Shown piece by piece: positions 9,952-19,160 of a stretch of 22,797 nt of DNA. A model generated the notes under the pieces. It was not told the DNA's origin. It ran no database searches and saw only the letters and a list, made by a program, of their open reading frames with translations. The DNA is from a virus. The stretch spans positions 1 to 22,797 of the IMG/VR virus record IMGVR_UViG_3300028173_000065; one strand, given 5' to 3'. Made by a program: the position numbers and the translations under genes. Each line of letters starts with the position of its first letter. The stretch's first letter is position 1.

Positions 9952-10023
9952 ATGAAAAATCAAACAACACAAAAAGAAGTAATAAAAAGTATTGTTTATC
10001 CAAATAATTGTTTATCTTTGTAG
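9952..10023 (+). CDS. Very short ORF, possibly a gene cut off upstream of the HNH insertion
   Basis: ATG two bases after the previous stop opens a 23-codon ORF (MKNQTTQKEVIKSIVYPNN...). The stop lies inside the promoter of the following HNH gene. It may be a normal mini-gene, or the 5' remnant of a gene truncated when the endonuclease cassette arrived. No motif supports either. Confidence 0.3.
   Translation: MKNQTTQKEVIKSIVYPNNCLSL
9992..10020 (+). promoter_or_regulatory. Bacteroidota-type promoter for the HNH endonuclease
   Basis: TTG at 9992-9994, 18-bp spacer, TATCTTTG at 10013-10020. It would start transcription about 120 bases before the endonuclease start, giving a long leader that contains a small ORF and a terminator-like hairpin. 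Confidence 0.65.
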
Positions 10024-10039
10024 TGTCAAAAAATAAATA

Positions 10040-10123
10040 ATGAATAATCACAAAGAAATAAATCCTATTAAAGTATCCGGTGACCGTGAGGCTTCGGGGG
10101 AGTGTTACATTATTAGCTTCTGA
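10040..10123 (+). CDS. Possible 27-residue leader peptide of the HNH gene
   Basis: ATG at 10040 opens MNNHKEINPIKVSGDREASG... and stops at 10123, between the two arms of the terminator-like hairpin. A ribosome on this ORF would cover the 5' arm at 10064-10076. It could be a regulatory leader peptide or noise. Confidence 0.35.
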   Translation: MNNHKEINPIKVSGDREASGECYIISF

Positions 10124-10145
10124 TAATACTTTAGTAGGTTTTTTT
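10064..10145 (+). terminator. Terminator-like long hairpin directly before the HNH start codon
   Basis: CCTATTAAAGTAT (10064-10076) pairs with ATACTTTAGTAGG (10126-10138) over 13 positions with one G-U, followed by T7 (10139-10145) and the ATG at 10149. The loop contains a GC-rich part (10079-10100) that includes CGGTGACCG and can fold on its own. AGTGTTA (10101-10107) can instead pair with TAATACT (10124-10130), using part of the same 3' arm. Thus two alternative folds exist. Confidence 0.6.
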
Positions 10146-10148
10146 ATT

Positions 10149-10691
10149 ATGGAAATTTGGAAAAATATTAAGGATTACGAAGGAATGTACCAAGTTAGTA
10201 ATTTGGGGAATGTAAAAAGTCTTTCGAGAAAATTAAGAGTGCACCATAATAGTATGCGTTTATTAAGAGAAAGAATATTAAAATGCGGAATATTAAGACA
10301 AGGTTATAAAGCTGCTGCATTATGGGAAAATCAAAAAGTAAAATTATGTACAATTCATAGATTAGTTGGAATTGCTTTTATTCCAAATCCTAAAAACAAA
10401 CCTTGTATTAATCATAAAAACGGTATAAAAACAGACAACCGAGTTGAAAATTTAGAATGGGTAACTTATTCAGAAAATATGATTCATGCGTTAAAACATA
10501 ATTTAATAAAAAAGGGTGAGGAAAAATGTAATACACAATTAACTAATAAAAATGCATTAATAATTAAACTGTTATATAAAGAAGGAATATATACCCAAAA
10601 ACAAATAGGATTAAAATATAATATTTCACAACATACAGTTAGTAGAATAGTAAATAAAAAATCATGGAAACATATAACAGAAGTAAATTAA
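10149..10691 (+). CDS. HNH homing endonuclease with NUMOD4 motif
   Basis: 180 residues from the ATG at 10149; an upstream in-frame start at 10080 would run through the hairpin and is rejected. The N-terminus WKNIKDYEGMYQVSNLGNVKS is a NUMOD4 motif. It is followed by an HNH domain with IHRLVGIAFIPNP, CINHKNGIKTDNRVENLEW and VTYSEN, and a C-terminal helix-turn-helix (TQKQIGLKYNISQHTVSRIV). These free-standing endonucleases cut a specific phage site and spread themselves. The last 28 bases overlap the next gene, and it carries its own promoter, as mobile genes often do. Confidence 0.92.
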   Translation: MEIWKNIKDYEGMYQVSNLGNVKSLSRKLRVHHNSMRLLRERILKCGILRQGYKAAALWENQKVKLCTIHRLVGIAFIPNPKNKPCINHKNGIKTDNRVENLEWVTYSENMIHALKHNLIKKGEEKCNTQLTNKNALIIKLLYKEGIYTQKQIGLKYNISQHTVSRIVNKKSWKHITEVN

Positions 10692-12680: not shown

Positions 12681-12710
12681 TTGTTTAATCGAAATATTGA
12701 TTTAACTTTG
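12681..12710 (+). promoter_or_regulatory. Strong Bacteroidota promoter
   Basis: TTG at 12681-12683, 19-bp spacer, TAACTTTG at 12703-12710 followed by C: a near-perfect consensus. Transcription should start within a few bases of the leader ATG at 12715. Confidence 0.75.
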
Positions 12711-12714
12711 CATT

Positions 12715-12826
12715 ATGGTATCAGGTTATTCATATAGATTTTATTTAATTAATATAATGTTAATTGTTTGGGGGGACTCCAGCCTGATACCCTGCCCCCC
12801 TTCTTTTAACATAAGAGGGTATCATA
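12715..12826 (+). promoter_or_regulatory. Structured leader with mutually exclusive hairpins (switch or attenuator)
   Basis: Five segments in order: A GGTATCAGG (12717-12725), B G6 (12770-12775), A' CCTGATACC (12783-12791), B' C6 (12795-12800) followed by TTCTTTT, and A'' AGGGTATCA (12816-12824) just before the ATG at 12827. A pairs with A' (9 bp), B with B' (terminator shape), and A' also pairs with A'' (9 bp, TGATACCCT at 12785-12793). A:A' and B:B' cross, so they compete or form a pseudoknot. A small ORF (MVSGYSYRF..., 12715-12840) spans the entire leader and starts almost at the predicted RNA 5' end. Confidence 0.65.
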
Positions 12827-13585
12827 ATGGCAGAAAATAAAAAAGGTTTTGTTCTGTATGCTGATTTAATCCATACAGTAAAAAAATTACCAGACAAAAA
12901 AGCCGGTCAATTATTAAAAATCATTTTAAGTTATGTTAATGATGAAAATCCAAAAGTTGATGATCTTATAATTAATATTGCATTTGAACCGATAAAACAA
13001 CAATTAAAAAGAGATTTACAAAAATGGGAAACCATAAGAGTTAAAAGATCGGAAGCAGGAAAAATAAGTGCAGAAAAAAGAAAGCAACAAAAAGCAACAA
13101 ATTCAACAAATGTTGAAAGTGTTGAACAAAAAGCAACAAATTCAACAGTAAAAGATACAGTTAAAGTTACAGTTAAAGTTACAGATACAGTTAAAGAAAA
13201 AGTAATAAAAGATAATACTGGCAAACAAAAAAGTTTGCATTCAATTTTACAAAATGACTTTTTAAAATATTATAAATGGCTTAAAAAAGAGGATTTTTGC
13301 TGGTCTGCAAAAGAAGGTACAAATTTAAAAAGCTTAATAACAAAATTAAAATTTTCTATTAAAAATAACAACCATGAACCTACGGATGAAAACATACAGG
13401 CTACCTTTCAAAAAATATTAAAATCAATAAAAGATAAATGGATATTAGAAAAGTTATCTCCATCAATTATAAATTCACAATACAATGAAATCATTGGAAA
13501 AATCAAATCAAGTCCAGAAGCACTCAGGGAAAAACTGGTTAGAGAAATGGAAGAAGCCGCTATTGAGCATAACGAAAATAAGTGA
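12827..13585 (+). CDS. DUF6291-like replication-associated protein
   Basis: 252 residues. The N-terminus KKGFVLYADLIHTVKKLPDKKAGQLLKII, then VDDLIINIAFEPIKQQLKRD and KRSEAGKISAEKRKQQ, is the pattern of the DUF6291 family found before replication genes in Bacteroidota phages. A low-complexity Lys/Thr/Val linker (about residues 85-130) follows, then a helical C-terminal domain, a layout reminiscent of DnaD/lambda O type initiators. The linker DNA contains iteron-like repeats. It starts right behind the structured leader. Initiator function is an inference from organisation. Confidence 0.7.
   Translation: MAENKKGFVLYADLIHTVKKLPDKKAGQLLKIILSYVNDENPKVDDLIINIAFEPIKQQLKRDLQKWETIRVKRSEAGKISAEKRKQQKATNSTNVESVEQKATNSTVKDTVKVTVKVTDTVKEKVIKDNTGKQKSLHSILQNDFLKYYKWLKKEDFCWSAKEGTNLKSLITKLKFSIKNNNHEPTDENIQATFQKILKSIKDKWILEKLSPSIINSQYNEIIGKIKSSPEALREKLVREMEEAAIEHNENK
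13086..13196 (+). repeat. Iteron-like direct repeats and palindrome inside the replication gene
   Basis: A 23-bp segment at 13086-13108 is repeated exactly at 13125-13147 (39 bp apart). Overlapping the first copy, TTCAACA-aa-TGTTGAA (13102-13117) is a perfect palindrome. Downstream, ACAGTTAAAG occurs at 13157, 13169 and 13187. Lambda-type phages keep origin iterons inside the initiator gene O, so this may be the origin. Alternatively it merely reflects the repetitive protein linker. Confidence 0.45.
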
Positions 13586-17630: not shown

Positions 17631-17659
17631 TTGTTAATTCAAAATAATAACTATCTTTG
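17631..17659 (+). promoter_or_regulatory. Bacteroidota-type promoter for the methyltransferase unit
   Basis: TTG at 17631-17633, 18-bp spacer, TATCTTTG at 17652-17659. The transcript would start only a few bases before the leader ATG at 17667. Confidence 0.7.
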
Positions 17660-17666
17660 TAAAAAT

Positions 17667-17768
17667 ATGAGGTTCTCAAAAAATATTAACAGCACAAACA
17701 AGCGGAGGTTATCCGAATTGAACCTCAGCCCCTCTGCTTTGTTTTGTGCTAATCAAAAATGAGGTTTA
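17667..17768 (+). promoter_or_regulatory. Structured leader with crossing hairpins, same topology as 12715-12826
   Basis: A TGAGGTTC (17668-17675) pairs with A' GAACCTCA (17720-17727). B AGCACAAACAAGCGGAGG (17691-17708) pairs with B' (17731-17750) over 18 positions with two T bulges; A' lies in its loop. A'' TGAGGTT (17760-17766) again complements A' and ends 2 bases before the ATG at 17769. A small ORF (MRFSKNINSTNKRRLSEL..., 31 codons) begins at 17667 and stops at 17762 inside A''. The order A, B, A', B', A'', start is identical to the other leader, though the sequence is unrelated. Confidence 0.65.
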
Positions 17769-19160
17769 ATGGAACAATTGAAAATGTTTAAACAAAAAAT
17801 CGAATTAATAAAAGTTGATAGCGTTATTGGTTCAGGTTATGAAGAAGAAGTATCAAAATTGGCAATCGAAGACGGGGTGGCTTACAGGGCTGCAAGAAAA
17901 AATATGCAAATTCATTCAGCAATTATATTGAAAATAGATAATGAATTTTGTGGGTTTTTTACGTTTCAAGTAAATCATATAGCTAAAGAATTTTGTTTAT
18001 TGCAATCAGCTATGGATTTAAACAAAAAAGACAGGGATATTTATATCAAAATGGTTGAAAAAATAATCGAACAAAACACGTTCGGTTATCCAATGATAAT
18101 GACAGTTAGTACTAAGCATGACTTAGAATGCCCAAAAGTATTTGAAAAGGCAGGATTTAAAACATATTTAAATTTAAGTGGATTTGAATATATGGTTTAC
18201 GGTACATTTGAACAAATAAGAATGAAACGCTTAGCACATGCAACTATGACAAACGCATGGACTACAACAAGATCGGACTGGTTAAAAATGAAAAAGGAAT
18301 GGAACGCAAAAATAGAAGAAATGGGTGAGAAGCATAATATCCCTAATCCTAAATTTGCTTCACGTGATGGTTGCTGGCAAGGTTCAAACGGATATTCTAA
18401 TGTTGTACTTTCAAGTAATGTAGTAGAAAACGGAAAAGTCGTTCATAAAAAGGGAAAATCATTTAATGGCAATGCTTCAGTTTTAGACCCTGTAGCCTGT
18501 GAAGCAATTTTAAGATTTTTTATGCCGACTGACGGAAAAAGAGTTTACAACCCTTTTGGAGGCGGTGTTCAATTTGGTTTTATTGCGGGGAGTTATGGAT
18601 ATGATTACGTAGCAAGCGAAATAAGGCAAAACCAATGTGACGCCAATAATGAATTATGTAAAGATTTAAAAGGAAATGCTAAATGGATTAAAAGTAACAG
18701 CGCAACCTATGAACCTGATGGAATGTTTGATTTATGTTTTATGTGTCCACCTTATTATAAAGTAGAAAAATATATTGATTACGATAATGTTATTCCAGAA
18801 GGCGAATTAAATAATTTACCGACTTATGAAGAGTTTAGAGATTCTTTATTTTCTGGCTATAAAAATGCAATTAAACATTTAAACGATAATTGTTTTTTTG
18901 TTGTAATGACAGGTGATTCGAGAGATAAAAATGGTGCTTATTATGGTAGTGAGGCAGAGCATGAATTATTCTTTAAAGATCAAGGTTTTCATATTTATAA
19001 CAAAATTGTTTACCTTGAATGTGAATTTACAAGACTTGCACATGCAAAAAGAACACTTGATTATAGGAAATTTCCAAAAAGAGAACAAAAAATACTGGTA
19101 TTTTATAAAGGTGATATGAAAAAAATAAAAGAATTGTACCCACCTATTGGAAGGTTATAA
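17769..19160 (+). CDS. DNA methyltransferase fused to a GNAT-like N-terminal domain
   Basis: 463 residues. Residues ~1-135 look like an acetyltransferase-type (GNAT) domain: HSAIILKIDNEFCGFFTFQV, then KVFEKAGFKTYLNLSGFEY. From ~165 on it is a class I methyltransferase: VYNPFGGGVQFGFIAGS (about 258-274) is the SAM-binding motif I variant and FDLCFMCPPYYKVE (about 320-333) holds motif IV CPPY, close to the DPPY/SPPY of amino-methyltransferases. It may methylate or otherwise modify phage DNA against restriction. The following gene starts after one base, implying joint function. Catalysis by the GNAT part is unproven. Confidence 0.8.
   Translation: MEQLKMFKQKIELIKVDSVIGSGYEEEVSKLAIEDGVAYRAARKNMQIHSAIILKIDNEFCGFFTFQVNHIAKEFCLLQSAMDLNKKDRDIYIKMVEKIIEQNTFGYPMIMTVSTKHDLECPKVFEKAGFKTYLNLSGFEYMVYGTFEQIRMKRLAHATMTNAWTTTRSDWLKMKKEWNAKIEEMGEKHNIPNPKFASRDGCWQGSNGYSNVVLSSNVVENGKVVHKKGKSFNGNASVLDPVACEAILRFFMPTDGKRVYNPFGGGVQFGFIAGSYGYDYVASEIRQNQCDANNELCKDLKGNAKWIKSNSATYEPDGMFDLCFMCPPYYKVEKYIDYDNVIPEGELNNLPTYEEFRDSLFSGYKNAIKHLNDNCFFVVMTGDSRDKNGAYYGSEAEHELFFKDQGFHIYNKIVYLECEFTRLAHAKRTLDYRKFPKREQKILVFYKGDMKKIKELYPPIGRL

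Follow-up and report, generated by a model that had tools for sequence, protein, structure and literature searches.

The methyltransferase gene of a viral genome fragment is preceded by a leader that, judged from its sequence, appears to be one of a widespread and unannotated kind of RNA that stands where phage genes for DNA replication and DNA modification begin. The window, i.e. the whole stretch of 22,797 nucleotides that was analysed (IMG/VR record IMGVR_UViG_3300028173_000065), contains two such leaders (Table 1). The second of these (leader 2) is probably an RNA switch acting in cis, a member of a class of phage leaders; its segment A' would pair with either A or A''. Observed for this class are a common topology, anchoring to promoters, covariation in relatives, the rule that A and A'' are the same sequence and the reverse complement of A', and two output types: a terminator-like U-run after hairpin strand B' or, as in leader 2, a copy of A at the start codon.

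Table 1. Features of the two leaders, a possible third leader and the genes behind leaders 1 and 2 (window coordinates).
Feature	Position	Strand	Remarks
Possible third leader, before HNH gene	10013..10146	+	TATCTTTG; B 10064-10076; B' 10126-10138; T-run; by eye
Leader 1 -7 element, TAACTTTG	12703..12710	+	6 nt upstream of A; not noted in the preliminary description
Leader 1 A, GGTATCAGG	12717..12725	+	
Leader 1 B, ATGTTAATTGTTTGGGGGG	12757..12775	+	
Leader 1 A', CCTGATACCCT	12783..12793	+	9 bp with A, 9 bp with A''
Leader 1 B', CCCCCCTTCTTTTAACAT	12795..12812	+	
Leader 1 A'', AGGGTATCA	12816..12824	+	Ends 2 nt before ATG at 12827
DUF6291 gene behind leader 1	12827..13585	+	PF19808, E 7e-22; phrog_6451, E 4e-5, weak primosomal-protein similarity
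Leader 2 -7 promoter element, TATCTTTG	17652..17659	+	Match to Bacteroidota TAnnTTTG; read from the sequence
ATG-started frame, 31 codons, across leader 2	17667..17762	+	TGA at 17760 inside A''; not conserved in relatives
Leader 2 A, TGAGGTTC	17668..17675	+	
Leader 2 B	17691..17708	+	5' strand of long hairpin
Leader 2 A', core GAACCTCA	17717..17727	+	Core 17720-17727; apical loop of B:B'
Leader 2 B'	17731..17750	+	3' strand of long hairpin; no U-run after it
Leader 2 A''	17760..17770	+	Second copy of A; TGAGGTT 17760-17766; extends into start codon
Methyltransferase gene behind leader 2, 463 aa	17769..19160	+	phrog_498 DNA methyltransferase, E 1e-36; predicted fold matches methyltransferases

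The segments of leader 2 lie where the preliminary description had placed them (A from 17668, A' from 17720 and TGAGGTT from 17760), and its bulged B:B' helix of 18 pairs, with A' in the loop, was likewise recovered. By direct reading, A and A' are 100% complementary over 8 nt. A' and A'' (ATTGAACCTCA with TGAGGTTTAAT) form 11 pairs, including one G-U, that reach into the ATG and extend further than first reported. The -7 element, which had gone unmentioned, conforms to the Bacteroidota consensus TAnnTTTG (PMC7366714), and A starts 8 nt downstream of it; judged from the position of this element, the transcript probably begins just before A, as it would in leader 1. The two alternative helices are of similar strength (-12.8 kcal/mol for A:A' and -16.2 kcal/mol for A':A''), pseudoknot energies being sums of separate helices without a folding model. 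The energy of folding alone is unremarkable (z = -1.4), because the pseudoknot cannot be scored. Apart from their own A and A'', nothing in the window complements the loops of leaders 1 and 2 over at least 9 nt. A DNA similarity search with leader 2 and its gene found no match in known phages; no close relatives of leader 2 itself were found, and its own pairs are thus without a covariation test.

In the proposed mechanism, transcription would begin a few bases 5' of A, and A would pair with A' in the apical loop of B:B', as a loop-loop interaction or H-type pseudoknot, leaving the start codon open. The second copy of A at the start codon, A'', would compete for the A' loop; with A':A'' formed, the start codon would be covered and the methyltransferase left untranslated. 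Because A and A' are made before A'', the default state is probably ON, and removal or occupation of A would turn it OFF. Sibling leaders would use the same sensor, with a terminator-like U-run after B' replacing A'', and a possible role would be to control the dose of genes for replication, recombination and modification. Production of the RNA, control of translation or termination, direction of the switch and the role in gene dose are all inferred, there being no RNA, structure or expression data.

Leader 1 has two 9-bp pairings, A:A' and A':A'', offset by two bases and again similar in energy (-17.9 and -18.5 kcal/mol, respectively). In an unbiased scan of both strands, leaders 2 and 1 were the best two A-B-A'-B' sites of the window (-40.2 and -38.3), with the third at -31.6. 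In the possible third leader (window 10013-10150), a 13-bp hairpin is followed by seven or eight Ts; its A:A' candidate is merely AT-rich and weak, and is not significant alone. The 31-codon open reading frame that had been reported to span leader 2 and stop inside A'' exists as a sequence feature. It is not a common trait of the A''-type relatives, and is probably incidental. A translation-coupled attenuator driven by this frame would suit leaders 1, 2 and L293, where an AUG frame runs from in or at A to A'' or into the gene; such control is nonetheless very improbable, as other A''-type leaders have no comparable frame on reading of their sequences (five codons in L085; none from an AUG in L135, L215, L324, L058 and L094). 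A leader peptide or peptide-coupled attenuator was rejected on the ground that the frame is not conserved.

Searched against shuffled sequence, a check proposed in the preliminary description, the topology proved far commoner in real DNA, whether anchored to promoters or not. Relatives of the methyltransferase and of DUF6291 were drawn from viral contigs, whole contigs, bacterial genomes and cultured phages, with dinucleotide-shuffled sequence as the control. Across 3175 distinct promoter-like sites, the anchored A-B-A'-B' arrangement was present at 20 with scores <= -32 (0.0 in shuffled downstream sequence) and at 26 with scores <= -28 (1.0 shuffled). The five-segment form, defined by an A'' ending 2-9 nt before AUG, occurred 15 times at scores <= -28 without promoter anchoring, compared with twice in one shuffle (2.76 Mb). 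Nearly all true five-segment sites directly follow TAnnTTTG, and 2-5 nt separate the end of their A'' from AUG. Their A sequences are unrelated (CUACCA, AUGCAG, UGAGGU, GUGCAG, GUUGCA, AGGCAG, CAGCAC and GGUAUC), and the identity of A, A'' and the reverse complement of A' is therefore true of about ten independent sequences. An unanchored four-segment scan over all loci gave little excess, since GC-rich coding DNA yields high-scoring long duplexes; this was resolved by TAnnTTTG anchoring or by requiring A''. The descriptor score thresholds were set after the first examples had been seen. Independent of that choice are the shuffles, the loops dealt among members, a new genome locus (L330, allele GGUCGAA/UUCGACC) and the cultured phages. 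Weak sites of this kind do arise by chance, but chance pairing in AT-rich phage DNA is scarcely credible as an explanation: it is contradicted by the ranking within the window, the excesses over shuffles, and the A:A' counts and covariation in classes I and II, and is already refuted for the class.

Two subclasses of relatives can be told apart by the internal loop that each conserves in hairpin B. In class I this module is UGAA/GGAU, with which 31 scaffolds were found without use of A or A'. All 31 have a 7-nt loop complement upstream, against 4.0 with loops dealt among members and 0.2 in shuffles. With the pseudoknot written into the class I alignment, covariation was 0.616 against 0.203, and 0.137 with partners slid by one column; the A:A' helix is 96.6% paired, with two-sided changes at six of its eight pairs and one-sided changes at none. 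A'' is found in 0 of 34 class I leaders. Class II carries the module AGUA/GAA, which presumably resembles the sarcin-ricin bulged-G motif. Here A:A', not used to find the members, is present in 14 of 14 and A'' in 11 of 14 (2.8 and 2.5 when dealt); within this sample L034 is apparently a chance match, several others are near relatives of each other, and the A'' of L221 lies inside the coding start. A forms the loop of a small 5' hairpin with a stem of at least 5 in 58 of 91 sites (19 shuffled), and A:A' is therefore usually a kissing loop.

Pairing is kept by compensatory change where relatives exist. Together with the topology, this supports the original proposal that both leaders of the window belong to one class of regulatory RNA; the regulation itself remains inferred. 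Hairpin B of leaders 1 and 2 has neither UGAA/GGAU nor AGUA/GAA; all that links these two leaders to the described classes is topology, promoter anchoring and A''. The membership of leader 2 would thus be topological, with evidence borrowed from the relatives on the strength of a common topology, the place of the promoter, the type of gene behind and the A'' rule. A mobile-element origin, with A and A'' as a target duplication, was rejected, since A' covaries with both. Rfam gave no match over any leader of the window and 35 loci, even at E up to 5 for 15 loci, and a literature search found no description of such leaders. A self-cleaving HDV-like fold was rejected by eye, as the spacers and catalytic core do not fit. 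A type II hammerhead ribozyme was matched by Rfam, at the gathering threshold, elsewhere on L069 (1910-1968, minus strand), a phage contig that also has a methyltransferase and an A-B-A'-B' leader.

The catalogue comprises 91 sites, roughly 20-25 of them apparently due to chance. A U-run alone is present at 57, A'' alone at 8 and both at 1, and the two nearly exclude each other (8/33 vs 1/58; Fisher p = 0.001). The five-segment topology first described is real, though only a minority of the relatives have this output: in most, a U-run follows B' and A'' is lacking. Leaders 1 and 2 have no U-run. The hairpin and pseudoknot at the RNA 5' end, with the U-run of most members, could be read as an ordinary 5' mRNA-stabilising structure, or as a plain terminator plus promoter, in which loop pairing serves stability only and no switch exists. 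That account is improbable in that it leaves unexplained the start-codon copies of A'' with their three-way sequence agreement, the near exclusion of A'' and U-run, and the strict Watson-Crick covariation of the loop pair.

Genes behind the leaders are largely replication or recombination starts. They include those for a DnaD-like helicase loader, RecT, a DNA helicase and a ParB-like plus N6_N4 methylase, in addition to HNH and DUF6291 genes, the methyltransferase of the window and small unknown frames; homologous genes stand without any leader in numerous phages and prophages elsewhere. Over its N-terminal 215 residues (window 17769-18400), the methyltransferase has no Pfam match, and an acetyltransferase-like (GNAT/Mom-like) domain is suspected there by eye. 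In circularly permuted form, the window is contained in IMGVR_UViG_3300024259_000007 (41,322 bp), a sequence with Erf, an exonuclease, a terminase and a PAPS-reductase-like gene but without a tyrosine integrase. Upstream of position 846 in L015, a leader of the same topology precedes a methyltransferase and has a TATAAT-type promoter, on the basis of which the design may extend beyond the phages of Bacteroidota.

Unannotated leaders are also present in cultured phages. They occupy the expected gaps of Flavobacterium Lillamyvirus and Muminvirus (before an HNH gene, and before DUF6291 or a helicase operon), precede the replication protein operon of Elemovirus, and occur in Cellulophaga phi13:2, which has a tyrosine recombinase and an HTH gene, and phi19:3. 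Near-identical leaders differ by compensated changes (GUGAGACG/CGUCUCAC in tooticki and lillamy, GUGGAACG/CGUUCCAC in snusmum and mumin, GUGAGAAG/CUUCUCAC in morran), and Elemovirus phages of one host (BAL314) carry three alleles. PMC7077304 describes the Flavobacterium phages infecting LMO6 and LMO9 as virulent, with one exception. The class I model matched once in 395 Bacteroidota genomes, in that of L330, where the leader lies on a 29.6-kb contig; class I leaders are therefore essentially phage-borne. On a chromosome contig of Pedobacter sp. Leaf170 (L338, near 3001), the leader AAGAUUGACA/UGUCAAUCUU, with an extra hairpin in its loop, precedes DUF6291. Integrase genes lie on the first contig of this genome at about 392 and 457 kb, and the locus may be a prophage.

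Where class I leaders precede related genes, A has diverged more quickly than either the gene or the scaffold. Phages with 94-97% identical genes have A identities of 25-62% in several pairs (for L095/L101, gene 0.96, hairpin-B scaffold 0.93 and A 0.38), and identical leaders precede genes that are only 76% identical. From such comparisons the leader would seem to be an exchangeable specificity module, whole leaders being swapped between genes. The alleles nonetheless do not vary without constraint: a CUCAC/GUGAG core occurs in 12 of 55 (1.2 permuted) and YUNR, a U-turn motif typical of antisense RNA loops (PMC4485353), in 32 of 55 (18.8 permuted); the alleles are related, which makes the permutation p-values optimistic. 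That the pairing sequence varies from phage to phage like a lock code suggests that phages use RNA loops to limit or tune replication and modification genes.

Such variation could also reflect control in trans, as in satellite phage P4. A short A-B-A'-B' RNA, released by termination or processing, would use its loop to pair with A or A'' in other leader transcripts that share its specificity; expression would then fall as own-type genomes multiply, and like-coded coinfecting phages would shut each other down. This is tenable though rather unlikely: it is favoured by a segment order equal to that of P4, by the replication and recombination genes behind the leaders, by the occurrence of different A before near-identical genes and of identical leaders before diverged ones, and by the YUNR excess, for which only the optimistic p-values are available, and no RNA data support it. 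Furthermore, none of 19 contigs with leaders, among them the window's 41-kb relative, carries the integrase PF00589, and the cultured Flavobacterium carriers are described as virulent (PMC7077304); prophage immunity is therefore not the general role. Slightly more doubtful still, and without trans data, is a loop code for phage self-recognition. By such a code, virulent and temperate Bacteroidota phages would control the starts of their replication, recombination and DNA-modification genes through short RNAs; the loops of these, hypervariable yet strictly complementary, would recognise same-type RNAs in trans. The result would be copy-dependent restraint and the exclusion of like by like, and the leader would be swapped between phages as a specificity cassette.

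The cis-acting switch remains the preferred reading of leader 2. A regulatory RNA that is conserved in shape and in the complementarity of its loops, but not in sequence, escapes both ordinary homology searches and Rfam. Such leaders stand in front of core genes for replication and modification in Flavobacterium and Cellulophaga phages that are in culture and open to testing, and allele pairs on the same host (tooticki/snusmum/morran; Elemovirus on BAL314) make P4-like RNA control in virulent phages directly testable.

Several known systems share parts of this design. In the T4 gene 32 leader, a phage mRNA carries an H-type pseudoknot at its 5' end; unlike that leader, the present ones precede many unrelated genes, not one autoregulated gene, and copies of the loop complement lie at the start codon. 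Riboswitches and r-protein leaders likewise combine one sensor with two outputs (terminator or start-codon occlusion), whereas here no ligand pocket is conserved across the class, the pairing sequence varies and the genes behind have no common product. ColIb-P9 repZ, with its loop-to-start-region pseudoknot, presumably bears a likeness to the present leaders. In the rep leaders of IncI/IncB/IncL-M plasmids, kissing loops set specificity and incompatibility at replication initiator genes (PMC10724649). Pairing in IncI-type leaders is controlled by an antisense RNA (RNAI) from the opposite strand, whereas antisense promoters are not enriched in 34 class I leaders (6 vs 6.5 expected). The closest known logic, by analogy, would be the seqA-CI-seqC immunity RNA of P4, with segment order seqA - CI(seqB) - seqC (PMC4825925). 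Assigned by position and complementarity in NC_001609, the segments are, in transcript order, GUGAGAA (8667, small apical loop), UUCUCAC (8448) and GUGAGAA (8415), in agreement with PMC4825925. Membership is not claimed, given the lack of an integrase in most carriers, of a U-run in leaders 1 and 2 and of trans data. P4 immunity depends on a short, stable, trans-acting RNA and on premature transcription termination; as to the latter, most class members have a U-run after B', but leaders 1 and 2 have none. Unlike P4, the present phages mostly have no integrase and do not meet the criterion of a temperate carrier, though phi13:2 and the Pedobacter genome have integrases; the output is an intrinsic-terminator-like U-run or start-codon occlusion, A and A' are close together, and the host phylum is another. 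Like P4, leaders 1, 2 and about ten others have a loop segment able to pair with two copies of its complement in the same leader, one upstream and one downstream. As in the present leaders, the upstream copy in P4 sits in a small apical loop (CGGG[CGUGAGAA]CCCG) and a replication operon follows, and the P4 core GUGAGA/UCUCAC recurs among the present alleles.
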